In this document: one piece after another, positions 15,872 to 35,571 of the stretch
Layout: each line of letters begins with the position of its first letter
Position numbering within the stretch: the first letter of the stretch is position 1
Origin: Hellea sp.
GTDB lineage: Bacteria; Pseudomonadota; Alphaproteobacteria; Caulobacterales; Maricaulaceae
Direction: 5' to 3'
Length of the DNA stretch: 44,017 nucleotides
Assembly (NCBI GenBank): GCA_014238285.1
Contig: JABABK010000027.1
Location: 1 to 44,017, forward strand
Position numbers and translations under genes: made by a program
The notes under the pieces: generated by a model
Database searches by the model: none
What the model saw: only the letters and a program-made list of their open reading frames with translations
What the model was told of the DNA's origin: nothing

Positions 15872-16855
15872 ATGGAATGTCAAAAAAAGACATTTAAGAC
15901 TAGCGGGGATAGCGTGAGACAATCGACAATTATTACCTTGGGTGCATCTGTAGCATTTGGCATTTTCGCCGTTATTTTGGCCAAGGGCTGGATAAACGAT
16001 GCGATTCGAAATGAATACTCTAAGCGAGGCCCGGTCATTTCAAAGGTGCAGCAAACGGCTCATGCCAATACCATTCCGGTTGTGGTTATTGATGCTGATG
16101 TCAACTTCGGAGATATACTCTCTACGGACCTATTAAAAATCGTCGACTATCCAATCGATGCCATTCCGTTAGGGACTTATGAAAGTTTAAGTAATATTTT
16201 TGTTGATCCCTCTCAAGCGACAGTGGTTTTAAGATATATGGCCAGAAATGAGCCGGTCCTAGATTACAAAATCAGCGGCCCCGGCGCTAAAGGCTCTATG
16301 TCTGTATTGATCTCAGAAGGCATGCGAGCGGTTTCGATCCGCGTCAATGAAGTCGCTGGTGTTGCGGGATTCATTATGCCCAGCGATTATGTCGATGTCA
16401 TTTTTACAAGGGATGATGAAAGCCGAAGAAACGGTAACAATCTAAAATCTGATATACTTCTGCAAAATGTCAAAGTCTTGGGTGTTGATCAGGATCTCAA
16501 TGAGATGTCGAACACGCCAATTGTTGTCAATTCTGTGACCCTTGAAGTCACAAATATAGATGCACAAAAACTGCACCTGGCCCAAGACGCCGGAAAGTTA
16601 AGCCTCACGCTCAGACGTGCTGGTGACACAGATATCGAAACACCTAAAACGATCGGGCAAACAAGCTTACTGGCGACAGCGTCAGCCTATAAGCCTGCCG
16701 CGAGAGGCAAGACCAAGCCCGTCTACCGGGCTCCAAAACCTTCAAATACGGCAAATGTAACCATTATTAGAGGCGAAGAACGCGATCAGGTGTCCGTCTT
16801 AAAACACAAAGATCCAGTAAGTGATGATGTGGTGCTTGCTGGGGGTTCCCTATGA
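15872..16855 (+). CDS. cpaB: Flp pilus assembly protein CpaB (RcpC)
   Basis: First gene of the Tad operon. One N-terminal membrane segment (residues about 20-38, LGASVAFGIFAVILAKGW) is followed by a SAF domain (about 68-125, VVVIDADVNFGDILSTDLLK) and the RcpC/CpaB domain starting at VLISEGMRAVSIRVNEVAGV and containing SDYVDVIFTRDD. CpaB acts in the periplasm with the secretin. The length, 327 residues, is a little above usual. ATG 15872 gives a short polar leader; GTG 15914, preceded by GGGGA five bases upstream, would remove it and is a fair alternative. The stop overlaps cpaC by 4 bases. Confidence 0.92.
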   Translation: MECQKKTFKTSGDSVRQSTIITLGASVAFGIFAVILAKGWINDAIRNEYSKRGPVISKVQQTAHANTIPVVVIDADVNFGDILSTDLLKIVDYPIDAIPLGTYESLSNIFVDPSQATVVLRYMARNEPVLDYKISGPGAKGSMSVLISEGMRAVSIRVNEVAGVAGFIMPSDYVDVIFTRDDESRRNGNNLKSDILLQNVKVLGVDQDLNEMSNTPIVVNSVTLEVTNIDAQKLHLAQDAGKLSLTLRRAGDTDIETPKTIGQTSLLATASAYKPAARGKTKPVYRAPKPSNTANVTIIRGEERDQVSVLKHKDPVSDDVVLAGGSL

Positions 16856-18183
16856 AAACTTTAAAAACAATCTTTGCCTCAAGCCTAGCGATAAGCTTAA
16901 TGGCAAGCCCTGCTCTTGCGAAATCTTGGATCGATGATTTATCAGGCAGCCGCACCGCGACATCAGTCAATATTGACGATCTGATTGTTATGAAAACGGA
17001 TCAATCCTTTAAAGAGGTCCGTGTTGCCAATGCCGATATTGCCGATGTTGTTGTTCTGACCGACCGCTCCTTCCATGTTATGGGGAAAAAGAGCGGTAAA
17101 ACCAATGTGATGCTTTATGATTCAGAGAAACAGCTCATTGATATCATAAAAGTCACCGTTGGGTACGATCTCGCAGAACTCAAAAAAAGCCTCTTTGAAA
17201 CACTGCCAAATCAAACTGTCGAAGTCAGGCCAATGGGCGGCGGTATCTACCTCTCTGGCGAAGTTTCTAGTCCAGATGCGTCCATCAGGGCAGAACAAAT
17301 TGCGCAAGCTTATGCGCCGGGGCGCGTTACCAATGCCCTCGCCGTCAACGACTCCCATCAAGTCATGCTGGAGGTTCGCTTCGTCGAAGCCAGCCGCGAC
17401 GCTATCAAAGAAATCGGGATCGGTCTTTTAACGCAGCGCAATGGAAATAATGGTTTTGCATCAGGCGCAGGTCTTTTATCAGGAAACCTGCCTTCACTCG
17501 TGGGTTCGCTCTTAGGGAGCAGCGGCGAATTTTCACTAGATGCCAACATACAAGCACTTGAGGAACAAGGCATTATTCGTACGCTCGCCGAACCCAACCT
17601 CGTGTCCATGTCGGGTGACACAGCTAGCTTTTTAGCGGGCGGTGAATTTCCATTTCCTGTCGCGGCAGATGAAGGTCGTGTTGCCATTGAATTTCGTCAG
17701 TTTGGTGTCAGCCTATCATTTACACCAACGGTTTTAGATGACGGGATCATTAATCTGGAAGTCAAACCGGAAGTAAGTCAAATCGATACGTCCAACTCTG
17801 TTCGCCTCGGCGATGTTGAGATACCGTCGCTTCGTGTGAGACGCGCTGATACGACGGTTGAGCTGCGAAATGGCCAAAGTTTTGCCATTGCTGGCTTACT
17901 GCAAAATGACAGCTCCACTAGTAAAGTTCAGGTGCCATGGCTAGGTGATGTACCAATATTAGGATCATTGTTCCGCTCGAGCCGGTATAAAAAACATGAA
18001 ACCGAACTGGTTATAATCGTGACACCAAGATTGGTTAAACCAGCACCGGACATAAGTGATCTCGCCACACCTTTTGATCATATACGAGGACCTTCAGAGT
18101 TAGAGTTTTTCCTCAACGGAACCATGGAAAAAACATCTGATGCAGGCGGGTTATCTGGAAAATATGGTCATACACTACAATAA
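16852..18183 (+). CDS. cpaC: Tad pilus outer-membrane secretin CpaC (RcpA)
   Basis: A type II/III-type secretin of 443 residues. A signal peptide (residues 1-23, ending SPALA) precedes an N-terminal pilus-secretin domain (about 38-110) and a BON-like segment. The secretin core begins at QVMLEVRFVEASRDAIKEIG and ends with the diagnostic VPWLGDVPILGSLFRS and ELVIIVTPRLVKP. It forms the outer-membrane ring through which the Flp pilus leaves. The ATG overlaps the cpaB stop (ATGA). Its place between CpaB and the pseudopilins is standard for Tad loci. Confidence 0.95.
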   Translation: MKTLKTIFASSLAISLMASPALAKSWIDDLSGSRTATSVNIDDLIVMKTDQSFKEVRVANADIADVVVLTDRSFHVMGKKSGKTNVMLYDSEKQLIDIIKVTVGYDLAELKKSLFETLPNQTVEVRPMGGGIYLSGEVSSPDASIRAEQIAQAYAPGRVTNALAVNDSHQVMLEVRFVEASRDAIKEIGIGLLTQRNGNNGFASGAGLLSGNLPSLVGSLLGSSGEFSLDANIQALEEQGIIRTLAEPNLVSMSGDTASFLAGGEFPFPVAADEGRVAIEFRQFGVSLSFTPTVLDDGIINLEVKPEVSQIDTSNSVRLGDVEIPSLRVRRADTTVELRNGQSFAIAGLLQNDSSTSKVQVPWLGDVPILGSLFRSSRYKKHETELVIIVTPRLVKPAPDISDLATPFDHIRGPSELEFFLNGTMEKTSDAGGLSGKYGHTLQ

Positions 18184-18200
18184 TCTAGACAGGACTAGTC

Positions 18201-18458
18201 ATGAAAATTCGACATAAAATTCTATGTATTTTATCGGTGAGTGTATTGGGTGCCTGCACGACATCTATGGACTTATCGTCAGATAATTTCGGAAAATCGG
18301 TTCACCATAATATCGAGGTTCAACATGTAAAACCAACCGATGCGCAAAAGCAAAACACCTTTATTCGTCCAGATGTACAAAGATCCACTCTCGCCCAGCA
18401 AAGATACAAAACTGACGAGGTTGAAAAGCCCGTTGATTTACGAACCACTAGCGATTGA
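18201..18458 (+). CDS. small Tad-locus lipoprotein
   Basis: An 85-residue lipoprotein. The signal sequence ends in a lipobox, SVLGAC, with Cys19 as the lipidated residue. The mature part has NFGKSVHHNIEVQ followed by a polar tail with QQRYKTDEVEKP. I know this short pattern (DFGxAVxxNxxxQ, then a YxTxxVxxP tail) from small lipoproteins in alphaproteobacterial Tad loci, where they may replace or assist the CpaD pilotin. Full-length CpaD is about 200 residues, so this is not a normal CpaD. An AGGA site sits 8 bases before the ATG, 17 bases after cpaC. Confidence 0.75.
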   Translation: MKIRHKILCILSVSVLGACTTSMDLSSDNFGKSVHHNIEVQHVKPTDAQKQNTFIRPDVQRSTLAQQRYKTDEVEKPVDLRTTSD

Positions 18459-18468
18459 TCTCGATTAA

Positions 18469-19950
18469 ATGTCACAAGATCGCGGTCATCAATTAGTTAA
18501 ACGTCTCTGGCGCGAAAGCACCGGAGCTATAGCAATCTGGGCCGCATTTACGCTCCCTATTTTAATCGGGGGCGCCGCTTTATCTGTCGACGTGTCCCGT
18601 ATGTATAATATGGAACATGAGCTACAGATTGCAGCAGATGCCTTAGCTCGGTCAGGCGCGACGGAGCTTGATCAACGTAGCGATTCTATCGAACGATCCC
18701 GCCGAGCAATTGCCAATCTCGTATCCAACCGTCAAAAGTTTAGTGTTGACGGCGCCGATGAAGTTCTCGCCCAAAGTATTCGGTTTTTGCAAAACTTACC
18801 CGAAAATGATTATGAAGTGCCGGGCCCCGAATACGAAACAACAGACCCTTACAAAGCCCGCTTCGTTGAAGTCGTCGTTATTCCGGAAACGGTTCGAGTT
18901 ATTTTTTCTCAAAAACTCGCCGGAACGATTTCTTCAGTCACGCTGAGCGCTAGCTCAATTGCAGGCACAGAAAATGGAGTCTGCGGCGCGGCGCCGCTAT
19001 TCGTTTGCAACCCTTATGAAGATTCAGATACCAGCATCTATGAAGCCATGGAAACCAAAGAATTTCAACGCCGCTTAATTCAACTCAAGACCACCAATAA
19101 GAACACTGACACTTACGGACCCGGAAATTTTGGATTTTTGGATCCTTACGGAAACGGCGATAATTCTAAAATTGATGATGCTATTGCAATTAATAAATCT
19201 CCCATTTGTATCGGGAAAAGTTCCGGCGTTAATACTGAGCCCGGTAACATCGCTTCTCTGCGCGTCGCGTTCAACACACGGTTTGATATTTATGAAGGCA
19301 AATTCAAACAAAAATCCTCTGACCCCCTTTATGCCCCAGCTGAAAACGTAACCAAAGGATATTCCGGCAAGGCTTGTAAGGAAGAACCAGATCCAAATGC
19401 TCTGGGTCTGCCCCGTGATGATTGTTTCGCTACTGACTCTTGTACGCTTATGGATGGACGACAGGGTGATGGGGACTGGGATTTTGTATCTTATATGGAA
19501 GTCAATCATAACGCCGTAGCAAGTGTAACTATTGACAGCATCACTTATAACCTGAACTATAATAGCGGCAAATCCCAGCCCAAATCACCTCCAAGCCGTT
19601 ATGACGTTTATCGTTGGGAAATTGATACTGGTTCGATCCCAGGAGCTATATCATATGGAACTTCATCGACACCTGAAGAAGGCACACCGCAATGTCATAA
19701 ATCCGGACCATCCACGGCAGTAGTCGATCGCCGGATCATGTATGTTGCTGTTTTAAACTGTAATGCTATCGAGGCGAGTACGGGCATGAACGGTCGAGAA
19801 ACTAACTTACCCGTCGAAACGTTCGCGAAAGTTTTTGTAACCGAGCCTATGGGGAAATCTCATGAAAATACAATTTGGGGCGAAATGGTTGGCCCGATTG
19901 TTAAGGGCAAAGATAGCGGTGCAAAAGACCGAGTGACGGTAACGCGATAA
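18469..19950 (+). CDS. TadG-like pseudopilin with long extracytoplasmic domain
   Basis: A 493-residue protein with one N-terminal membrane segment, GAIAIWAAFTLPILIGGAAL, followed by DVSRMYNMEHELQIAADALA, the TadG/TadE N-terminal signature. The remaining roughly 440 residues are extracytoplasmic, contain several Cys (CGAAPLFVC, CKEE, CFATDSC) and resemble the beta-rich TadG domain, though no von Willebrand A metal site was recognised. TadG-type proteins are minor structural parts of the Flp fibre or its envelope anchor. ATG 18469 has no strong ribosome site and is 10 bases after the lipoprotein stop. The stop overlaps the next ATG by 1 base (TAATG). Confidence 0.85.
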   Translation: MSQDRGHQLVKRLWRESTGAIAIWAAFTLPILIGGAALSVDVSRMYNMEHELQIAADALARSGATELDQRSDSIERSRRAIANLVSNRQKFSVDGADEVLAQSIRFLQNLPENDYEVPGPEYETTDPYKARFVEVVVIPETVRVIFSQKLAGTISSVTLSASSIAGTENGVCGAAPLFVCNPYEDSDTSIYEAMETKEFQRRLIQLKTTNKNTDTYGPGNFGFLDPYGNGDNSKIDDAIAINKSPICIGKSSGVNTEPGNIASLRVAFNTRFDIYEGKFKQKSSDPLYAPAENVTKGYSGKACKEEPDPNALGLPRDDCFATDSCTLMDGRQGDGDWDFVSYMEVNHNAVASVTIDSITYNLNYNSGKSQPKSPPSRYDVYRWEIDTGSIPGAISYGTSSTPEEGTPQCHKSGPSTAVVDRRIMYVAVLNCNAIEASTGMNGRETNLPVETFAKVFVTEPMGKSHENTIWGEMVGPIVKGKDSGAKDRVTVTR

Positions 19951-20429
19951 TGAGTATCTTAAAGGCATATCAACGTGAAGACGATGGCAGCGTATTAGTC
20001 GAGTCTGCTCTTATCTTGCCCTTACTGATCGCTGCAGGCCTGGGAAGTATTGATGCGTCATATATGATGCTACAAAACCATAAGCTTGAAAGTCAGCTCG
20101 CCATGGCGGCCAGTTATTTGTCTCGTAGTGATAACCCTTCGAATTTGGAGAACACAGCCAAAACACTCGCTTTGACCGGAACTATTGATGGTTCCAAAGC
20201 TGTCCTAAAAGGTTGGGGTCTAGATGATATCAGCATAAGTTATTTGACGACCGACAACCAAACCAATGGTAATGGCGGTACATTATATAGAGGTGATGCG
20301 ACCGTCACGACTGTCGTGATTTCAAGTCAGTTTGATTATAAGGGCATGGGAATACTCTCCTCTGTCATACCCAATGGAACGTCTTTAAATGCAAGCGTAG
20401 AGGAACGCGTGACAGGGGGGGGCTTGTGA
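19950..20429 (+). CDS. TadE-like pseudopilin
   Basis: A 159-residue TadE-family pseudopilin. After a short basic leader the GSVLVESALILPLLIAAGLG segment combines the conserved Glu with the hydrophobic helix, followed by SIDASYMMLQNHKLE. TadE proteins are processed like pilins and help nucleate the Flp pilus. It overlaps the TadG-like gene by 1 base and the next gene by 4 bases. No separate prepilin peptidase is encoded nearby, so processing would depend on a gene elsewhere. Confidence 0.85.
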   Translation: MSILKAYQREDDGSVLVESALILPLLIAAGLGSIDASYMMLQNHKLESQLAMAASYLSRSDNPSNLENTAKTLALTGTIDGSKAVLKGWGLDDISISYLTTDNQTNGNGGTLYRGDATVTTVVISSQFDYKGMGILSSVIPNGTSLNASVEERVTGGGL

Positions 20430-21052
20430 GAACTTCGGTCATTACCTCGTCATATTTATCCGAGAAATCCGGAGCTGTTAGTATTTCCGCCAGTTTCGTA
20501 GTTGGCATCTTTATTTTCCTGATCGGCGGAGGGATTGAAATGGGACATGCCTATTGGAAAACGAATGCCCTCCAGCACGCCGCTAGGATGGGTGTGCGTA
20601 TTGCGACAACAGTTGATCCGGTCGCGCTGGGGCTTACGACGATAACAGGTTTGGAAGGTAGTGTTGAAGTAGGTGAACCAATGCCCAGTTACCTATTTAG
20701 CTGCTCAGGGAAAACCAAAAGCTGCAATCAAGGTGAATTTAATGAAGCCGCTTTCAATAGAATATTGTTTGGCCGAGATAACGATGGAACATGCGTCGGT
20801 ACCTCGCAAGAACGCCGCGGCATGTGTGACTATTTTGATGACATTAAGTCCGAAAACGTCACCATAAGCTATCAAAATTCTGGTATGGGGCGAGCCGGAT
20901 TTCCGCCGGATTTAATGCCCCTTGTAAAGATATCAATTTCAGACATTCAGCATGATTATGTCTTTGTTGATATATTCACATCAATAGGGAACATCGGGCT
21001 TTTAAGCGCAGAAGCAATTTCTCTAGCAGAGGATTTGAAATCGGGACTATGA
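20426..21052 (+). CDS. second TadE/TadF-like pseudopilin
   Basis: A 208-residue protein with an N-terminal SGAVSISASFVVGIFIFLIG helix, then GGGIEMGHAYWKTNALQHAARMG, the TadE/TadF pattern. A conserved Glu is present in GIEMGHAY rather than just before the helix. The C-terminal part includes CSGKTKSC and a second Cys pair, suggesting disulphides in the periplasm. The start is GTG 20426 in a GTGA overlap with the preceding stop; the stop overlaps the CpaE ATG by 4 bases. It probably acts as a minor subunit with its two neighbours. Confidence 0.8.
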   Translation: MRTSVITSSYLSEKSGAVSISASFVVGIFIFLIGGGIEMGHAYWKTNALQHAARMGVRIATTVDPVALGLTTITGLEGSVEVGEPMPSYLFSCSGKTKSCNQGEFNEAAFNRILFGRDNDGTCVGTSQERRGMCDYFDDIKSENVTISYQNSGMGRAGFPPDLMPLVKISISDIQHDYVFVDIFTSIGNIGLLSAEAISLAEDLKSGL

Positions 21053-26325: not shown

Positions 26326-29300
26326 TCAGTCTGAGTAGCCGCGAATAAGTAGGCGCCTGACTCTTCTGCTTTTACTAGAAACCGTTATGACGGTTACCAC
26401 ATAGCGATCGAGCCAAGCCGTTCTGGCAATATCCAATATGGCCGTCTCTCGGCTAAAGAAGCGATAGTTTGAACCATTATAGGTTTCCAGAGTGAAGCCT
26501 TCAAAATCACCGAAGTGATCGTAAAGAAGCCCGCTGACTTTTCCTGATTTAGCGGCAGGTTTGACTTTCTTCGGATCGCCAAGTCCATCCGTTTCGGACA
26601 GCCAGTCATCATCGCCTGGCTCAAAGAATGGATCATCATCTCCGCCTGGTACGTCGTCATCACCCGGCTTTTCTCCATCACTACTTCCATCATCCGGATT
26701 GTCGTCACCGGGATCCGTTGGCAATGGAATGATACCGCCAACATGCGGAGGTATTTTATAGACATCGCCACCCAGCGCTTTGACCTTTTCTGTCAAGAGA
26801 TCAAGATAATGCATGAATGTTTCATACCAACGACTATTCAGCCTCAAATGTTCAGCTCGCCAACGAAATGCTGATAATAGCCGCATGTGGTAGATCAACA
26901 TATCATCTTTCATACTCACGGGTATTCCGAGCTGGAATGCCCCGACAACTTCGCGCCAGAGACCGGATTGTTGTCTCGCGCGCTCAACTTTTTTCGGATC
27001 GGGATGTTCAATGAGTAAAGCATGGTCACCCACAGCATCAAATATGGATAAATCTGTCACAAGCGTTTTATTGTCGCCTAAATCATAGACCCCTGCGGCA
27101 AACGTCTTACGTTTTGCATGTGTCGTTTCAGCTTTGTCATATTTTGCCAGTAGCTTGGCGGCTTCTTTTGCTGAGATTTCAGTCGTCTGCGTGGGCGGAA
27201 ATTTCCCTCTTCGGATTCTATTTGTGATTTGCTGAACCGCGAGATCAAATCTCTGCCCTTTTTTAACGCCCAGAGGAAATTGCAAAGATAGGACACCTGT
27301 CTGGCGCCCAAGATGTTGCGGAATAGGTACATAGCGACTGCCGCCTGCTGGTATTGCAATCGTATGATCATCTAGTACTCGAATTTCATGCCGCGCATAC
27401 ATTTTATCAGCAAGTTCAACGACTTTATGCGCCTTCCAACTCGGGATAAAAATACGAACTTCGGTTCCCTTTGGAACACCCTTATCCCAATCTAACAAAA
27501 GCTCATCTGCGGGCAGATTTGCTGTGATTGGACGCGGCGTTGCCTCAATTTCAAATGTATGCATCGCCATGCGGGACGCGTTAAGTCCCGGATTAGCAAT
27601 CGTACTCATGGCAAGATTACGTTGTGATAATTTATCGGAAGTCGAAGGTCTGGATCCACTTGGTATCGGGGTTCCGTCATATTCAATTTGAGCGACCAAA
27701 CATTGATGCTCTCCCATTAACAAGGTCGGAAGAGGCACGCTGCCACTTTCACTAGGTATGATAGGCAAATATGGGTCATCCAGGTTATTGTCGATCAGTG
27801 CCCCAAAAAAAGTTGTAACTTCTGATCCCGGATTAGGTGCAATATCTTTAACATTAAATCCATCCGCTTGCGACGATGTTGGCGACGTTCTAGCCTGCGC
27901 AAAAAACGGAAAAGACAACCATTCACCGCCTCCGCTCGTTGTTCCCGGTAAGGCAATAGGCGAAGCGTTATCAGTTCGCAAATATCCTTGTTGCGGCAGT
28001 TCCCCATCTGGATGGATATATGTAAGCGCCGCCGTTGTTTGAGACGTGAATATGCGAAAGAAAACCCGAACGTTTTCGGCAGACGCAGAATTTCCATTTA
28101 GCCGAACTCTAGCAACGGCGAAATTATAGACTTTCTTAGAATCCGCGCCAGTTGTCGTGGGCAAGGGGCTTAACGCCGATTCAGACTGTTGGACTGGCAG
28201 AGCATTAAATGCGGCGGTCGATAATCCCGTCACATAGTCTTGAATATAATCGAGTGCCTGAGCGCGAGACGCATTGGCCGGTAAACCGCCTTCTCCGGCG
28301 ATAACCGGAAATACCCTGACATCAGAACTGAGCCAGGTTTTTGCGTCTGAATGGTCTAGGTCTAACATAAAAGGATTGGCTGATTTCACAAGCTGTATCC
28401 AAGCTGTATCCGTTAAAGGCCCGGCAACAGCATCTGAAATCAATGTTCCCGTTACCGGAATATCAATATTATTCCCGTCAAATCCAAACGCATCCTCGGA
28501 ATCTATTGTCACGTTATAGGTGAAGGTAATACGCTGTACGCGGTCTGGATATCCTGGGTCATCCGTATCCACAGAATTAACTGCAATATTTACGCCCGTA
28601 ACATCATTGAAAACGGGAGCTCGGGATGCAAGCTGCGCAGCAGAAAGCCCGCCTGAAACACCGCCACCGGGAAATTGATTAGGCTTAAGACCGCTAACAG
28701 TCACCAACACAGCACCATTAAAATTTGGATTTCCGCTAACTTCATCCTGACTAAATGTGCTGCGCTCCAAAATAACTTCAAGACGGGGTCTTGGTCGTGC
28801 TAGCCAGTTTGTTATATTGATATAAACGGCCTTGATTTTTTCAAACACAGCCGGATCATCGTTAAACCCATGACCTTTTTCCGCTGACGGCCCCGTCCGG
28901 TCTTTTTTTTCATCCGTGTCAATCCGCGTATCTCCGGTGAGGTTTATATCGATGTAGTGATGAAATGTTGCGCCGGTAATTATTCTGCCAATACCGACCT
29001 TACGACCGTCATAGACACTAAATGTATTAACTGTTTTCGGATCAGCTATTGTCGTATCAAGAGAACTCTCGGACCAGCCGTAATATTGAGCATAACCTAA
29101 AGATTGGCCCGTCGCAATTATTTGAGGCTTTTCGACTACGCCTTCTAGAGCTGGAAACTCATCATTGGGAGAGCCAACGATATTTTGATCGTAGTCATAA
29201 TTAACTGCGTCAAGCTCAACCTCACCCAATGTTTGCCCCTCATGCATATGATCCGGGAACACATCGATGTCTTCATCATCATGCCGCAAAATCGCATGAG

Positions 29301-29907
29301 TTGGCGGCACTATTGTTAATGGCTGTGGAATTTTATCTGACTGGTTCTCGAAATAAATTCCGTTAGCGGGATAATTGCCAAGAGGGTTTCGCTGCACTGT
29401 ATCGGCGCGGCCAGTACCAATTTGATGATAATTTCGCGGAAAATTATCCGGCATAGGCGAAATATCGTCATTTGGACCAAACCACGCTCTCATCGCCCGA
29501 ATACGCGGCAAGTGTCCACACATGGATGTCCCAATACTATCATGATCACCGGTTGCAAACACCCCGCCGCCAGCATCCATAAATTCTGTAATGGCTAGAA
29601 TTTGTTCGTCGGGAATTGCCGGTAGGCTATCGGCCGTCGAGGTGGGTCCGCCATTTCTACCGTCTTTACCGAAAAGCCAGATTACGTCATATTGAAGCAG
29701 ATTATGATCGGCGAAATCAAACTCATGCAAAACGCCGGGTTCCGCGGGAGACGAAACTGTTGGCTCTCGGCGATGGGCTCGCGTGACGTCCATACCCTCA
29801 CCAGCCAAAGTATTGACGAGTTCGGTATAAGTGAAATCAGGTGTTGATCCCTGATCATCTGCAAATCTATAGGAACCGTCTAAGACTATAAGAACTTTAA
29901 TAGGCAT
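26326..29907 (-). CDS. 1193-residue protein: amidotransferase-like domain, beta-rich middle, acidic linker, small C-terminal domain
   Basis: I do not recognise the whole protein. Residues about 1-365 look like a class I amidotransferase/ThuA-like fold: an opening beta strand (PIKVLIVLDGS), DVIWLFG, then ITEFMDAGGGVFATGDHDSIG at the elbow. Residues about 370-900 are beta-rich and Ig-like in feel, with no known motif. Residues about 1057-1110 are an acidic Asp/Gly/Pro linker, and about 1117-1193 form a compact basic module (SGLLYDHFGDFEGFTLETY to the end). There is no signal peptide, so it is probably cytoplasmic. ATG 29907 is clear: an AGGAGG site lies 6 bases upstream. The frame is open back to 30006, but that part is not coding-like. 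It is divergent from the TIR gene and shares the CGTGA-N6-TCACG operator with it. Confidence 0.7.
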   Translation of the reverse strand: MPIKVLIVLDGSYRFADDQGSTPDFTYTELVNTLAGEGMDVTRAHRREPTVSSPAEPGVLHEFDFADHNLLQYDVIWLFGKDGRNGGPTSTADSLPAIPDEQILAITEFMDAGGGVFATGDHDSIGTSMCGHLPRIRAMRAWFGPNDDISPMPDNFPRNYHQIGTGRADTVQRNPLGNYPANGIYFENQSDKIPQPLTIVPPTHAILRHDDEDIDVFPDHMHEGQTLGEVELDAVNYDYDQNIVGSPNDEFPALEGVVEKPQIIATGQSLGYAQYYGWSESSLDTTIADPKTVNTFSVYDGRKVGIGRIITGATFHHYIDINLTGDTRIDTDEKKDRTGPSAEKGHGFNDDPAVFEKIKAVYINITNWLARPRPRLEVILERSTFSQDEVSGNPNFNGAVLVTVSGLKPNQFPGGGVSGGLSAAQLASRAPVFNDVTGVNIAVNSVDTDDPGYPDRVQRITFTYNVTIDSEDAFGFDGNNIDIPVTGTLISDAVAGPLTDTAWIQLVKSANPFMLDLDHSDAKTWLSSDVRVFPVIAGEGGLPANASRAQALDYIQDYVTGLSTAAFNALPVQQSESALSPLPTTTGADSKKVYNFAVARVRLNGNSASAENVRVFFRIFTSQTTAALTYIHPDGELPQQGYLRTDNASPIALPGTTSGGGEWLSFPFFAQARTSPTSSQADGFNVKDIAPNPGSEVTTFFGALIDNNLDDPYLPIIPSESGSVPLPTLLMGEHQCLVAQIEYDGTPIPSGSRPSTSDKLSQRNLAMSTIANPGLNASRMAMHTFEIEATPRPITANLPADELLLDWDKGVPKGTEVRIFIPSWKAHKVVELADKMYARHEIRVLDDHTIAIPAGGSRYVPIPQHLGRQTGVLSLQFPLGVKKGQRFDLAVQQITNRIRRGKFPPTQTTEISAKEAAKLLAKYDKAETTHAKRKTFAAGVYDLGDNKTLVTDLSIFDAVGDHALLIEHPDPKKVERARQQSGLWREVVGAFQLGIPVSMKDDMLIYHMRLLSAFRWRAEHLRLNSRWYETFMHYLDLLTEKVKALGGDVYKIPPHVGGIIPLPTDPGDDNPDDGSSDGEKPGDDDVPGGDDDPFFEPGDDDWLSETDGLGDPKKVKPAAKSGKVSGLLYDHFGDFEGFTLETYNGSNYRFFSRETAILDIARTAWLDRYVVTVITVSSKSRRVRRLLIRGYSD

Positions 29908-30206
29908 TTTTGCCTCCTGTTTAAGCGTCCCCCTGCTAATTAGAATTTTGATGTAACCGCACAATTGGCTGCGGGCACGGTTAAGGCCGCACGCGTCAAT
30001 AAGCACGAAAGTCGTGCCAATAACTGCTTTGTAAATGAGTCCAATTCCCGAGGCTTTTGCTCGGTCTCAATGTGCGCCCAGATTAGCTCATCACTTAGAG
30101 CAAATCGTTCAACCTCTATAATTCAAATCGACAGTCAATACGCGTGAGATATCTCACGCTGACAAGAATTATATAAATCTGAAGATTAAAGTTGCAGACG
30201 TAATAC
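29908..30206. other. divergent intergenic region between the 1193-residue gene and the TIR gene
   Basis: About 300 bases without a convincing gene. It holds a short hairpin (GCACGA and TCGTGC arms, 30003-30017), the perfect palindrome at 30142-30159, and an AT-rich stretch with TATAAA at 30172 that could be a -10 element for the TIR gene. A 60-codon open frame at 29965-30147 lacks a ribosome site and looks spurious. Confidence 0.6.
30142..30159. promoter_or_regulatory. perfect 18-base palindromic operator, CGTGA-N6-TCACG class
   Basis: GCGTGAGAT followed by its exact reverse complement ATCTCACGC. The core CGTGA-N6-TCACG recurs at 32722 and 34336. It resembles CRP/FNR-superfamily sites (CRP: TGTGA-N6-TCACA) with the outer base changed. 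The centre is about 21 bases upstream of a TATAAA, so it would overlap the -35 region of the TIR promoter, and it could also serve the divergent large gene. Confidence 0.75.
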
Positions 30207-31934
30207 TTGCGCTCATGGCTTTTTTCCACTTATAATCAAACTTATTGGGGAACGACTATCAAGGGCAAACACAAATACGCGGCATTTATATCCTATGCTC
30301 ATGCTGATGAAGCGCAAGCAAGGAAGCTGCATAATGCGCTTGAAACTTATCCTCTGCCAAGAGGTATGGACACGGAAAAGCGCGCGCGACTCACCCCTAT
30401 TTTCAGGGATGTGACCGAGCTAACGGCCCACCATTCATTGTCTGAAAAAATCCGCGACGCGGTTGAAACATCACGCTATTTGATTGTCCTATGCTCACCC
30501 GCTGCTAAAGCTTCCCACTGGGTCAATGAAGAAATTCGGTTGTTCCGGTCACTCCACGGCGAAAATGCCATTCTAACAGTAATCGTCGACGGCGCTCCCG
30601 ATACCGCCTTCCCGCCAGCCCTACTGGATGATGGCCGTGAACCTCTGGCTGCCGACATTAGCGGCCGCGAAGGATTTAAATTCGGCACGACACAGCTTGC
30701 TGCCTCGATGTTAGGGGTGGGGCTTGATAGGCTGGTTCAGCGGGATCAGAAACGGCGGCGGATACGGGCGCAGATGATTACAGCGGCAAGTACAGCGCTT
30801 GCCATTGTCATGGGCGGACTTGCTTGGAACGCTGTCGATGCAAGAGATGACGCGCAGGTCAGCCAAGCCAAAGCCGAAGTCAGCCGGAACGAGGCGGAAG
30901 AACTAGTAGAATATATGCTAGGCGATTTAAAATCAGAGCTCGATGCAGTTGGTAAACTTCCCATTTTAAACGGTGTTGGTGACAAAGTTGCCGATTATTA
31001 CGAAGATATTCCACTCTCCGATATGGATGATGATAGGTTGGCAAGAAGATCCGAAGCACGGCATTTATTGGGACAAGTTTACTTGAAGCAAGGCCTAAAT
31101 GATAAATCGCTCGCGGAATTGCAAGCTGCTTATGACGCAACTGAAGAAATCTATCAGCGTAATCCTGATGATCCAGAAACAATATATACTCATGCCCAAA
31201 GTGAATATTGGATGGGGGAACTTTATCATATTAAAAAAAATTATTTAAAATCTCTTGAGTATTGGAAAAACTACAACAAATTCGGACAAATTCTATACAA
31301 TTTCGACCAAAGCCATTCACGTTGGTTAAACGAAGCAGCTTGGGGAAATGGAAATTTAGGCCTTTTATATAAAAAGCTGGAAGATTTTGAGAAAGCAACT
31401 CAACATTACACTAAATCAGTTGAGTATTTTCATTTATCTCTAAAGCACACCCCAAATGCCCAAAATATTAAATTTGAGCTAGCAAATAGCTTGGCTGGCT
31501 GGTCAAATACTCTAGTAAAAACTCGCAAGTTTTCGGAGGCACGGAACAGACGCAATGAGCAAATAAAGATACTTTCCGAATTACGAACCTTAGCGCCAAA
31601 TAATAATGAATTCAAATATCGTTATATCGGTGGTCAATTACGCTTACAACGAATTTTGGTTCAGAAGGAAAAGCAATGCAATCTTTTCGAGCAAAAAACG
31701 TATTTAAACAAGTTATTTAAATTGTCCCAGTTTGATGATAGCAATTATGATTGGAAACATGATTATGTTTCTCATTCGTATTTTTTTCTTACCGAGTGTC
31801 CAAATTGGAAATTTGCTCCTGATTTAGAATTTACACTTGCAAAAGTTTTAAAATTTGCCACCGAAAATATTTCTCCAGACGACTTAACAGAAGAATTAAG
31901 TGAACTGGCTCAAATAAGAAGAGCCAGTCAATAA
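30207..31934 (+). CDS. TIR domain, transmembrane segment and TPR protein
   Basis: The N-terminal TIR domain (TIR_2 type) starts with KYAAFISYAHADEAQA and has PIFRDVTELTAHHSLSEKI and VLCSPAAKASHWVNEEI, where a Glu of WVNEE is the candidate NADase residue. A basic stretch (QKRRRIRAQ) leads into one membrane helix (ITAASTALAIVMGGLAW), so the TIR domain is cytoplasmic. After it come an AEELVEYMLGDLKSELDAVGKL segment, common in alphaproteobacterial TIR and kinase-type receptors, and several TPRs. The start is uncertain: TTG 30207 has no ribosome site, whereas ATC 30258, with GGGGA 6 bases upstream, would give (M)KGKHKYAAFISYAHAD. The 3' half is much more AT-rich than the 5' half. It is likely a signalling or defence effector. 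It ends 6 bases from the convergent 238-residue gene. Confidence 0.85.
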   Translation: MRSWLFSTYNQTYWGTTIKGKHKYAAFISYAHADEAQARKLHNALETYPLPRGMDTEKRARLTPIFRDVTELTAHHSLSEKIRDAVETSRYLIVLCSPAAKASHWVNEEIRLFRSLHGENAILTVIVDGAPDTAFPPALLDDGREPLAADISGREGFKFGTTQLAASMLGVGLDRLVQRDQKRRRIRAQMITAASTALAIVMGGLAWNAVDARDDAQVSQAKAEVSRNEAEELVEYMLGDLKSELDAVGKLPILNGVGDKVADYYEDIPLSDMDDDRLARRSEARHLLGQVYLKQGLNDKSLAELQAAYDATEEIYQRNPDDPETIYTHAQSEYWMGELYHIKKNYLKSLEYWKNYNKFGQILYNFDQSHSRWLNEAAWGNGNLGLLYKKLEDFEKATQHYTKSVEYFHLSLKHTPNAQNIKFELANSLAGWSNTLVKTRKFSEARNRRNEQIKILSELRTLAPNNNEFKYRYIGGQLRLQRILVQKEKQCNLFEQKTYLNKLFKLSQFDDSNYDWKHDYVSHSYFFLTECPNWKFAPDLEFTLAKVLKFATENISPDDLTEELSELAQIRRASQ

Positions 31935-31940
31935 CTAGTA

Positions 31941-32657
31941 TTAATTCCCTCCTCGAGTACCGTCACTATTTGAACCCGGATCAATAATGATATCCGTGCA
32001 CATCTGTTCGCCCTGCGTCGTCTGGGTAATGGAAACGTGCAAATTATATTTCATCCGAAATTTACCAATTTCAGGGAGTACGGCGGTGGACGCTTCTTCT
32101 TTTGTGGTTGCCGCAACCAAGCGCTGGACAAATGCATTATCCGGCGCCCAGTTATGGTTCATCACAAATAGGCTGTGACCATCCGGGCTAGTGCCCAAGA
32201 TTTCAAACAAATCATTCGGACCTTCTTTCGACCCGCATAAAGCAGGGACATTATCGACTGAATATTGTGTGTGATCTGTGAATGTCCAATTTTCCCTAGG
32301 AAGATGAAAAACATGCACAACCGGACAGTTGATCGCAAAATCAAGCGGTGTTGGCGGCGTACCACTTTGATTGCGGTCATGATCTCCGAAAAAGTCAATA
32401 TAGCTTTGAACGGCATCAGAAACACCAGCCATACCCGTTAGCTGCGTAGCGGCATTTACAATCGTCTCTAATTGAGGAACTTTAATACGCGTCCTATGAA
32501 CATTACCGCCTTTAATATCGACATTGATCGGTAGCAGAAGCGGCTTTTTCGATCCGCTTTGGAATTCTTTGCTATTCATCCAATCAAGCTGATAGTGGTC
32601 CCATTTTCTCAAATAGTTTTGATTGGCGGTTATCTCTCCGCGTGTGATTTTAGGCAT
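31941..32657 (-). CDS. 238-residue protein of unknown function
   Basis: I do not recognise a family with confidence. It has no signal peptide or membrane helix, so it is probably cytoplasmic. Landmarks are LLLPINVDIKGGNVHRTRI, CPVVHVFHLPRENWTFTDH, SLFVMNHNW, and a C-terminal KYNLHVSITQTTQGEQMCTD leading into IIIDPGSNSDG. The alternation of beta strands suggests a compact beta-sandwich. The ATG at 32657 has a GGGAG site about 7 bases upstream. A CGTGA-N6-TCACG operator lies about 65 bases before the start, so it has its own promoter although it follows the protease gene on the same strand. It is likely a partner in the TIR/protease module; function is open. Confidence 0.75.
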   Translation of the reverse strand: MPKITRGEITANQNYLRKWDHYQLDWMNSKEFQSGSKKPLLLPINVDIKGGNVHRTRIKVPQLETIVNAATQLTGMAGVSDAVQSYIDFFGDHDRNQSGTPPTPLDFAINCPVVHVFHLPRENWTFTDHTQYSVDNVPALCGSKEGPNDLFEILGTSPDGHSLFVMNHNWAPDNAFVQRLVAATTKEEASTAVLPEIGKFRMKYNLHVSITQTTQGEQMCTDIIIDPGSNSDGTRGGN

Positions 32658-32721
32658 GGTCTCTCTCCCAATTTGTTGCCGTTGGTCTCGCTGTTTTCTA
32701 ACAAATTTTAAACCCCTCTGA

Positions 32722-32737
32722 CGTGACCGGGATCACG
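32722..32737. promoter_or_regulatory. CGTGA-N6-TCACG operator before the 238-residue gene
   Basis: CGTGA at 32722-32726, six bases, TCACG at 32733-32737. The right arm overlaps the stop codon of the protease gene. On the minus strand a TAAAAT at 32710-32705 lies about 20 bases past the centre and could be the -10 element for the 238-residue gene. Same half-sites as the elements at 30143 and 34336. Confidence 0.7.
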
Positions 32738-34283
32738 CGAACTTTCCTTTATTGGCCGCCTCGGCTGACGCGACGAATTCTATGGCCATGGCCAGATTGG
32801 CGGCTTCTTCACCAAATAATGACCGCGAGCCTGCAAAGTGAACCCCTAAAAGCTCGCCCGTGCGGGCGCAAAGAACCGGCGATCCTGAATGGCCCGGCAA
32901 GGTGGAGGCGTTGTGACAAACCGCCTGCAAGCTCTCGCCGGAATTGATCAGAGCATCGACTTTGAACATAATGCCAAAGGGCGCATCCGTATCGGTTGAG
33001 TGGCGAAATACTTGGCCTTGGGACAGCCGCTTGACCGCAAATATTGGATCCGGCTCTACGGCGGATAGAGTAACCTCATCCACTTCAAACGGACAAGGAT
33101 AGCCAACCAAAACCACGTCGCGCGTATCAAGGTCACTTGCCGGCACGGCGACGCGATCAATAGGTGTGCGGTCTGTGACGCCGCGCGTGAGCCTGAAAAT
33201 CGCGATGTCGAGTTCAGGTAAGACAAGCGGGGGCTGACCGTCAAATTCATAGTAATCCGAATGATCCCGGTCACGCTCTGCGATAAACTCAATCCCGCCG
33301 CACTCATCCCCGTGCAAATATTGCTTGTAAGTTTCCCAGACATGCTGATTGGTCATGACATGGCGCGGCGTGATTAAAAACCCAGTCCCGAGCGAAACAT
33401 CATCATTAGTAGGCACGCCTTCTTGAGCAAATCCAATACGTCCTGTGGCCTTGTATGCTGGGCGTAGAGCCGCATATTGCCCCGTCAGTGTCTGAAGACC
33501 TGATGGCATCGTATGTCCCAGAGGCGCCACTGGCGGCGGCCCTGGCGTGATTGCAGACATAGGAAAGGCGCTTTGCGCGAAAACAACGTGCTCGTCATTG
33601 GGTTTGCGCGGCCTAGGACGGACTCTCAAGTTTTCAGGAGAACCTGCCGGTGTGTTTTTTCCGCCCATAACATTCCGAAGCAATAAGCTCGCCGCCAAAA
33701 GACCCGCCGCTCCAATGGCAGGTATGAGCCAATTTATGGAGGGGGAAACAATCGAAGGTTCGCCAACGAATTCTACTTCGCGAATTTCGATAAAATTCCC
33801 ATAAGCCTTAAAAACACTCGTAACAATTAAGTCCACTTTGGCGACTCCCTCAATTTTATGAGGAAAATCGAATTCCTGTACATCAAGTTGAGCGCGTGCG
33901 GCTAACATCTGATCAAGTACGACTAACTTTTGACCACTTTTTCCATAAAACTTCAATTTGAAAGTTTTGACACCTTCACCATATACAACAACGTCATTCC
34001 AAAGACGAAATCCTGTAACATCATATAATTTATCAAATTTAAGTGTAATCACGCCTTGCTGGACGTCACTTATGAAGCCTTTCTTGTTGGCATACTGAAT
34101 ATTTTTATTGTATTTTTGTGGGTCTACAATTCCATCATTTATTTGAGAGAGCGATGTTCCTCTATCTGCAGATAAGTTCGTGCTAGGCGTAATTTGAGAT
34201 GTGCGGATTTCCCCGGCCATCGCAAACTGGCCAAGCAAGAACCAACTTGCTAATATCGATACTAAAAATCTACCCCAATGCAT
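32733..34283 (-). CDS. membrane protein with discoidin-like sensor and trypsin-like protease domain
   Basis: A 516-residue protein. A signal peptide (residues 1-23, ending FAMA) precedes a discoidin/F5-8C-like beta domain (about 27-175, with ITLKFDKLYDVTGFRLWND and IEIREVEFVGEP). One membrane helix (about 184-203) is followed by basic residues (RNVMGGK, then RVRPRPRKP). Residues about 270-516 are a Trypsin_2-type serine protease: His314 in TNQHVW, Asp359 in ELDIAIFRL and Ser466 in LPGHSGSPV. With a cleaved signal peptide and positive-inside flanks, the sensor would be periplasmic and the protease cytoplasmic. ATG 34283 has a GGGGAGAG site. The 5' third is AT-richer than the protease part, suggesting domain shuffling. 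A CGTGA-N6-TCACG site precedes it. Confidence 0.85.
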   Translation of the reverse strand: MHWGRFLVSILASWFLLGQFAMAGEIRTSQITPSTNLSADRGTSLSQINDGIVDPQKYNKNIQYANKKGFISDVQQGVITLKFDKLYDVTGFRLWNDVVVYGEGVKTFKLKFYGKSGQKLVVLDQMLAARAQLDVQEFDFPHKIEGVAKVDLIVTSVFKAYGNFIEIREVEFVGEPSIVSPSINWLIPAIGAAGLLAASLLLRNVMGGKNTPAGSPENLRVRPRPRKPNDEHVVFAQSAFPMSAITPGPPPVAPLGHTMPSGLQTLTGQYAALRPAYKATGRIGFAQEGVPTNDDVSLGTGFLITPRHVMTNQHVWETYKQYLHGDECGGIEFIAERDRDHSDYYEFDGQPPLVLPELDIAIFRLTRGVTDRTPIDRVAVPASDLDTRDVVLVGYPCPFEVDEVTLSAVEPDPIFAVKRLSQGQVFRHSTDTDAPFGIMFKVDALINSGESLQAVCHNASTLPGHSGSPVLCARTGELLGVHFAGSRSLFGEEAANLAMAIEFVASAEAANKGKFA

Positions 34284-34335
34284 GTCTGACTCTCCCCAAT
34301 TTGGTCAGATACTCGCACAAAACTTACCATGCCGC

Positions 34336-34351
34336 CGTGATCTGCATCACG
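34336..34351. promoter_or_regulatory. CGTGA-N6-TCACG operator before the membrane protease
   Basis: CGTGA at 34336-34340, six bases, TCACG at 34347-34351, about 53 bases before the protease ATG and about 48 bases before the divergent radical SAM start. Third copy of the same palindrome in 4.2 kb. A TAAGTT about 18 bases past the centre on the minus strand is a weak -10 candidate for the protease. Confidence 0.7.
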
Positions 34352-34398
34352 CAAGGTTTAATATGAACACCGTCGAAATATAGTTCTTGATTTGTTCT

Positions 34399-35571
34399 AT
34401 GAGTTATGATTACATTCCTATTATGGCAAAACCTCATTTATCATCCTTCAAGCCTGTTAAAGGGGCCATCGAAAAGGGACTCACTGAAAAAGGACGGGGG
34501 GCGCGGACGAATGTTACGCCGCGCTATGAAAGCCTGATCCGCGAGCGCCATGATGATGGCTGGGAATCTTTAAGCGATGACTTTCAAAAAGGCACAAAAA
34601 CCGAAGTGCGTTTTGATACGACCCGTAAAATCATAAACTATATCAAATCGCCCTATGTCAATATGGACAGGTCCATCAATATGTATCGGGGCTGTGAACA
34701 TGGCTGTATCTATTGTTTCGCCCGGCCCAATCATGCCTATTTAGGCTATTCTCCGGGACTGGATTTTGAAACCAAATTATTTGCCAAACCCCACGCCGCG
34801 AAACTACTCGCGGAAGAGATGGCGCATCCGCGCTATAAAGTTCGCACCATGGCTATCGGCACAAATACTGATGCCTATCAACCCATAGAGCGAATTTACA
34901 GGATCATGCACGATATCCTACAAGTTTTATCGGATTTCAATCATCCCGTGTCTGTTTTGACCAAATCCAATTTGATCACCCGAGATCTCGAGATACTCGC
35001 CCCCATGGCCAAAAAAAACCTGACCCGCTGTATGCTTTCCATCACCACGCAAGACCGCAGGCTGGCCCGCGCCATGGAACCGCGCGCGCCAACCCCTGAA
35101 AAGCGCTTTGAGGCATTAAAGCAGCTCGCCGATAACGGTATTCCCACAGGTATTATGCTCGGCCCCATGATACCGGGTCTCAATGATACAGAGCTGGAAT
35201 CGATCATGGAACGGGCGGTCGATCTCGGCGCCTCGTTCTCCGCCTACACGATCCTGCGTCTTCCCATGGAAATAGCGCCTCTGTTTCAGGAGTGGTTAGA
35301 AGTGTTTGCCCCCAACCGCGCCGCCCGTATCATGCGCCATATAAGAGAAATGAATGGGGGTAAGAATTACGACCCAGCCTGGTCCAGAAACATACAAGGA
35401 GAGGGCAGCGAGCTTAAAGGTACTTTTTCCAAACTCATTAGCTTTCGATATCGAAAGTCACAGGAGCGCACGGGCATTATATCTTTAAGCCGAGGCCGCG
35501 TACCCCTTGATCATAGCCTGTTTCGCGTGCCGTCAAAAATATCAGGTCAAGGCGATTTATTTGGCCCATAA
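34399..35571 (+). CDS. PA0069-family radical SAM protein
   Basis: About 390 residues. The iron-sulfur motif is CEHGCIYC (CxxxCxxC), followed by FARPNHAYLGYSPGLDFE, typical of the SplB-like PA0069 family. Other landmarks are GTNTDAYQPIERIYRI, SVLTKSNLITRDLEIL and GIMLGPMIPGLND. The reaction is not known for the family. The frame is open from TTG 34387; ATG 34399 or ATG 34423 (MAKPHLSS) are plausible starts and none has a strong ribosome site. It is divergent from the membrane protease and ends 10 bases from the convergent lipoprotein gene. It is widely conserved, so it is probably chromosomal background rather than part of the TIR module. Confidence 0.88.
   Translation: MSYDYIPIMAKPHLSSFKPVKGAIEKGLTEKGRGARTNVTPRYESLIRERHDDGWESLSDDFQKGTKTEVRFDTTRKIINYIKSPYVNMDRSINMYRGCEHGCIYCFARPNHAYLGYSPGLDFETKLFAKPHAAKLLAEEMAHPRYKVRTMAIGTNTDAYQPIERIYRIMHDILQVLSDFNHPVSVLTKSNLITRDLEILAPMAKKNLTRCMLSITTQDRRLARAMEPRAPTPEKRFEALKQLADNGIPTGIMLGPMIPGLNDTELESIMERAVDLGASFSAYTILRLPMEIAPLFQEWLEVFAPNRAARIMRHIREMNGGKNYDPAWSRNIQGEGSELKGTFSKLISFRYRKSQERTGIISLSRGRVPLDHSLFRVPSKISGQGDLFGP

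Follow-up and report, generated by a model that had tools for sequence, protein, structure and literature searches.

A CRP/FNR-type palindrome as putative operator of a TIR, pNTSase-like and membrane trypsin gene module in Hellea and its relatives

Background

Threshold-type prokaryotic immune systems of the TPR-S/pNTSase1 kind were reportedly proposed by Burroughs and Aravind in 2020, and both families, like the SLOG fold, have been tied by others to conflict systems. To our knowledge, the switching-on of modules of the TIR/TPR-S/pNTSase type is largely open. Among other described systems, Thoeris has an effector in which SIR2 is fused to SLOG, and the effector of Pycsar carries a cyclic nucleotide monophosphate (cNMP)-binding domain. 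The site of the cAMP (cyclic AMP) receptor protein CRP of E. coli is TGTGA-N6-TCACA, and the phosphate-binding residues of this protein are G-E ... R-S/T. Passages of Kaur et al. 2020 (PMC7159879) describe conflict systems with combinations of trypsin, cNMP cyclase and TIR/SLOG fold, sometimes with a linked CRP-like factor. The present analysis concerns a stretch of 44,017 nucleotides from Hellea sp. (contig JABABK010000027.1, hereafter the window), in which the palindrome CGTGA-N6-TCACG lies beside genes for a TIR protein, a 238-residue protein and a membrane trypsin-like protease. Sequence comparisons make it reasonably likely that a CRP-family regulator, paired with a TPR-S/SLOG/cyclase-like sensor, uses this palindrome as its operator and would control a TIR/pNTSase-like/membrane-trypsin module of immune-signalling type. 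This explanation is based on the synteny of the module, two fixed operator positions, sensor and CRP genes in 11 of 14 loci, and a RExxSR recognition helix.

Results

Palindromes and genes of the window

30143-30158, no strand: operator 1, CGTGAGATATCTCACG, between the TIR and 1193-residue genes and shared by both
32722-32737, no strand: operator 2, between the trypsin and 238-residue genes, overlapping the end of the trypsin gene
34336-34351, no strand: operator 3, upstream of the trypsin gene
30207-31934, plus strand: TIR-(TM)-TPR gene (TM, transmembrane stretch, by eye); start codon uncertain, first TTG used
31941-32657, minus strand: 238-residue gene, putative distant pNTSase1-type family
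32733-34283, minus strand: membrane trypsin-like protease, trypsin domain at residues 299-481
26326-29907, minus strand: 1193-residue gene, having operator 1 in common with the TIR gene
34387-35571, plus strand: PA0069-family radical SAM gene, divergent from the trypsin gene

An exact search found the palindrome at these three positions and nowhere else in the window, as an earlier note on this DNA had claimed. Three sites compare with 0.02 expected, and none of 100 shuffles reached three; the palindromes are real. Up to two mismatches yielded 17 sites against 13.9 expected, so that only the strict motif is informative in the window. Operator 1 is enclosed in a perfect 18-base palindrome (30142-30159), the stop codon TGA of the trypsin gene (complement of 32733-32735) is part of an operator 2 half-site, and operator 3 is also upstream of the divergent radical SAM gene, whose earliest possible start follows after about 35 bases. 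Of the four promoters said to share the palindrome, two have a site in common: three sites serve four genes, the TIR and 1193-residue genes both lying at operator 1.

Conservation of the module

Among 61 genomes searched, the own genome included, the trypsin gene was found in seven and the 238-residue gene in the same seven. When contigs were scanned with the trypsin alignment, 12 loci came up, under the names Hellea, Robiginitomaculum, Litorimonas or uncultured Caulobacterales (Hellea is placed in Robiginitomaculaceae, Maricaulales); five of these repeat earlier genomes, which leaves 14 distinct loci including the window. The gene order TIR, 238-residue gene, trypsin was kept in all 14, the TIR of L120 being weak and cut by the contig end. 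The genes, which the earlier note had called unlinked, thus form a conserved syntenic block, and three of the four genes proposed for co-occurrence (TIR, 238-residue gene, trypsin) do co-occur in other genomes. The 1193-residue gene does not: it had no clear relative in 60 related genomes, where a single 19-bit fragment was found, and it is therefore not part of the conserved module. The single functional module once suggested accordingly stands for the TIR, the 238-residue protein and the membrane protease, and not for the 1193-residue gene. Next to the trypsin gene, 11 of the 14 loci carry a TPR-S/SLOG/cyclase-like sensor gene together with a CRP-family gene; the sensor gene is the divergent neighbour of trypsin, in the place where the window has the radical SAM gene.

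The window TIR matched ThsB_TIR (PF08937) with 45.4 bits (cut-off 21.2), and it keeps the glutamate of WVNEE, common to all 24 aligned TIR proteins. No hydrophobic stretch in it passed the threshold, which is why its transmembrane stretch was judged by eye. The protease has a hydrophobic N-terminus (6-24), a variable part, a hydrophobic stretch (183-201) and the trypsin domain, with a His-Asp-Ser triad assigned by position (H314, D359, S466) and invariant in seven aligned sequences. The region before the triad varies among relatives in length and domains, and is presumed to lie outside the cell; Ig/cadherin-like repeats were found in the outer part of two of three scanned relatives. The hydrophobic stretch between variable part and trypsin domain was above threshold in 13 of 14 loci, L078 being the exception. 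PF00027 (cNMP_binding) had no match in the window TIR, trypsin or 238-residue protein.

Operators across the 14 loci

With at most one mismatch, a site by the trypsin start was present in 13 of 14 loci and a site around the trypsin stop and 238-residue gene start in all 14, against 0.05 and 0.03 expected from first-order random sequences. At both positions CGTGA ranked first among all 1024 half-sites; spacers other than 6 occurred in at most two loci, and the flanking columns were mostly unconserved. The trypsin stop TGA fell within a half-site in ten loci. From operator to first possible start codon there were 49-68 bases in 12 of 14 loci for trypsin (counting the two-mismatch site of L122) and in 13 for the 238-residue gene; in L118 the distances were 8 and 30 bases. 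The half-sites had been likened to CRP/FNR operators, and they correspond to one CRP/FNR-type operator conserved in relatives.

Sensor and regulator candidates

The own genome encodes a sensor-CRP pair on contig C22, with a one-mismatch site in front. The C22 CRP belongs to the CRP/FNR superfamily (PF00027, 54 bits, cut-off 27.5; PF13545, 31.2 bits, cut-off 27) and fails the NCBIfam CRP equivalog NF008732 (48 bits versus 266). At the phosphate-binding region it reads GQFMGCTALFYEQASSYQ, which departs from G-E ... R-S/T, and 18 of 22 sensor-linked CRPs likewise lack the G-E and R residues; a RExxSR recognition helix is found in these proteins. The C22 sensor matched TPR-S (PF20308) with 44.3 bits (cut-off 27.6), and all 22 sensors matched at E 0.01 or better. 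A SLOG-fold part is present in the TPR-S sensor partner of TIR, and Pfam detected no SIR2 in the TPR-S sensors scanned. The class III cyclase catalytic regions LFxD and WGDG are absent from the C22 sensor and present in four of 22. Cyclase core and CRP phosphate-binding residues were both lost in 18 of 22 pairs, the own genome's included, probably in one event. The best reading of these residues is that the regulator would be a CRP-family protein no longer reading cAMP in the usual way.

A second CRP of the own genome, C104 (L014:1672-3014), has the usual cAMP residues (G-E, R-S) and is divergent from a class III cyclase-AAA gene; past the 3' end of the C104 gene, an exact operator is found between convergent genes. 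C104-type matches above 140 bits were found in 6 of the 61 genomes, the own included.

Same-clade CRPs with no nearby sensor gene were seen in L131, L132 and L133, the L133 gene being flanked by two one-mismatch sites. The Caballeronia plasmid pSBC2-4 encodes a TPR-S sensor (L184:5902-7668) whose cyclase domain is borderline, and a TIR gene lies at a distance of about 5.5 kb; the 10 annotated features include no CRP gene.

The 238-residue family and sister cassettes

The window 238-residue protein scored 12.2 bits (E 0.17) against pNTSase1 (PF20301), below the gathering score of 25. Seven of 14 family members matched it weakly (E up to 1; best seen 21.5 bits), and an Asp-Pro near the C-terminus is invariant in all 14. 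The family is thus described here as a predicted distant pNTSase1 relative.

Sister cassettes, termed type A (L125-L130 and L082), consist of TIR, a small gene, sensor and CRP. Profile comparison related six of their small-gene proteins (about 270-290 residues, one longer; the 157-residue one of L125 was left out) to the 238-residue protein (97%, about 100 columns). A replicon of Novosphingobium sp. RL4 (L183:5742-10160) has the order TIR, pNTSase1, TPR-S sensor, CRP, and its CRP gene is preceded by an exact operator; the counterpart of the 238-residue protein is a clear pNTSase1 (229 bits), and the TIR_2 and TPR-S matches are clear too. This one case would tie the 238-residue/pNTSase1 family together in a second gene order.

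Each of the seven type A TIR genes also contains the exact operator, always at the same codon position and ahead of a hydrophobic stretch. In other TIR genes the site has one mismatch (L134, L136 and Novosphingobium) or more (L135). The seven TIRs share 101 identical-residue columns, seven of which have one codon in all, and three of these seven frozen codons, for Arg, Val and Thr, belong to the in-gene site. This freezing suggests selection on the DNA, although the residues are conserved too. The window TIR carries no in-gene site.

The motif across genomes

The own genome (3.74 Mb, 168 contigs, the window being contig C88) has 18 exact copies, 15 of them outside the window, versus one for the reversed control pattern; with up to one mismatch there were 141 versus 50. 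On a rough gene map of reading frames of at least 100 residues, 16 of the 18 were centred between genes; among these 16, one copy sits between convergent genes and another, operator 2, overlaps the end of a gene. The other two lie within purL and a phage capsid-region gene. The copies thus lay mostly between genes rather than scattered without promoter bias, the refuting case named in the earlier note; exclusivity to this module was not seen. The copies stand next to varied genes, so the regulon marked by the motif in this genome extends beyond the four genes and is not dedicated to the module.

In G012, G013 and G029, control relatives where the search for a C22-type CRP found nothing, all 15 examined exact sites (of 26) were within genes. 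In G006, of the same genus, four of five examined sites (of 12) were between genes, and in six further genomes 9 of 16 (of 22) were within genes. In-gene sites being common in relatives, raw site counts are a poor guide and position matters.

Discussion

Comparison with described systems

The TPR-S/pNTSase1 systems share TIR, TPR-S sensor and pNTSase1 with the module, clearly so in the Novosphingobium cluster. The module differs from them in its added transmembrane trypsin, in a pNTSase1 relative below the Pfam cut-off, in a mapped operator and in sensors mostly devoid of a cyclase core. Thoeris has in common with it the ThsB-type TIR and a SLOG-fold partner; the SLOG protein has no SIR2 match here, SLOG is part of the TPR-S/cyclase-like sensor, and the apparent output is transcription and proteolysis. 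With Pycsar, the likeness is that cyclase-type and cNMP-binding-type proteins are encoded side by side, four of 22 sensors keeping the cyclase core; here, however, the protein with the cNMP-type domain is a transcription factor rather than TIR or another effector, and the other 18 sensors lack the core. The E. coli CRP site has the same spacer and GTGA core, and the recognition helix is similar, whereas the outer base pair differs and most sensor-linked CRPs have lost the G-E ... R residues. The combinations in the cited passages of Kaur et al. (PMC7159879) were also found here, with the difference that the module proteins scanned had no MoxR, vWA or NucA match.

The earlier statement that the module matches no known system was too strong, TPR-S and pNTSase1 being named Pfam families, and the core system type has probably been proposed before. 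The literature looked through gave no account of the operator or of the protease branch. All parts belong to known families, and the TPR-S/pNTSase1 system type was reportedly described in 2020; a defined operator, a candidate regulator and a membrane protease as output are added to it here.

Alternative explanations

Several observations weigh against a sensor-linked CRP acting on an immune-type module. The 14 loci are related to one another and hence not independent, and in the own genome the C22 pair is not adjacent to the module. A conserved site before TIR is not supported: a site was seen in the window and in none of the 13 other loci (1 of 14; in L120 the region is readable for 30 bases only). 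The L122 site by the trypsin start has two mismatches, and that of L077 lies within a called reading frame. In the module carriers G010 and G027, five of five (of 10) and four of five (of 7) examined exact sites, the module's own left out, were within genes. PADLOC matches were weak. The TIR and trypsin genes had been taken to point to an immune system; the links to the immune-type families TPR-S, SLOG fold and pNTSase1 support this, and an immune role is suggested by family resemblance. Neighbours of the other sites include thyA, serS, a subtilase, a SIMPL protein, an EamA transporter and a reprolysin-like peptidase. The C104 CRP has the same helix (RETVSR) and so could use the sites, and in G020, 41 bases separate the end of an exact site from the C104-type CRP match that follows it.

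It is rather unlikely that the module serves a stress or cell-surface response instead of immunity, the outer part of the protease sensing the surface and the regulon adjusting the envelope. The Ig/cadherin-like repeats, and the SIMPL and reprolysin-like proteins beside sites, which look exported, would agree with such a role, but the TIR with its fully conserved glutamate, along with TPR-S, the SLOG fold and pNTSase1, argues against it; these families are tied to conflict systems by others, passages of Kaur 2020 (PMC7159879) among them. An ordinary global cAMP-CRP regulon, in which C104 with its intact cAMP residues and adjacent class III cyclase controls about 16 promoter regions including the TIR and protease genes, would account for the 16 intergenic-centred sites and their neighbours as well as for the C104 helix and the G020 site. 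We consider it unlikely, given that the operator is kept at the module in relatives with a sensor-linked CRP encoded beside it, that the other sites examined in G010 and G027 are mostly within genes, and that C104-type matches are restricted to so few genomes. That the palindromes have no regulator and are terminators, recombination sites or chance matches is very improbable: the copy between convergent genes and the two in-gene copies might speak for it, but sites at fixed positions are conserved across 14 loci, with a spacer of 6 and mostly unconserved flanks.

Proposed mechanism

With the sensor-linked CRP as regulator, the protein would bind the operator, in the own genome in trans from contig C22. 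The TIR may make or answer a signal derived from NAD, which the TPR-S/SLOG sensor would read, and the state of the sensor could be passed to the CRP by contact or by a non-cAMP ligand; non-cAMP signalling is proposed because both the cyclase core and the residues that usually bind the cAMP phosphate are lost in this lineage. The CRP would then switch the genes of the protease and the pNTSase-like protein. It would more likely be an activator than a repressor, because in most cases 49-68 bases lie between the end of the operator and the first possible start codon. Sensing by its variable outer part may prompt the protease to cleave an intracellular target.

A further proposal, possible yet doubtful, is that an immune-type circuit lost its cyclic-nucleotide messenger. 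Its pseudo-cyclase/SLOG sensor and cAMP-blind CRP would now signal by contact or by a TIR-derived nucleotide, and the CRP would act through operators built into genes (the protease stop codon, and the TIR coding sequence of sister cassettes) as a feedback brake or switch. The marine Hellea, Robiginitomaculum and Litorimonas relatives offer a natural series from active cyclase with cAMP-capable CRP to lost cyclase with altered CRP, and what the TPR-S/SLOG sensor passes on becomes a testable question.

Neighbouring genes

The 1193-residue protein had no Pfam, NCBIfam or PADLOC match, and the radical SAM gene is probably a bystander. Elsewhere in the window, positions 15872-21052 hold a five-gene block, whose counterpart in G028 (L076:14295-19642) directly adjoins a CRP gene.
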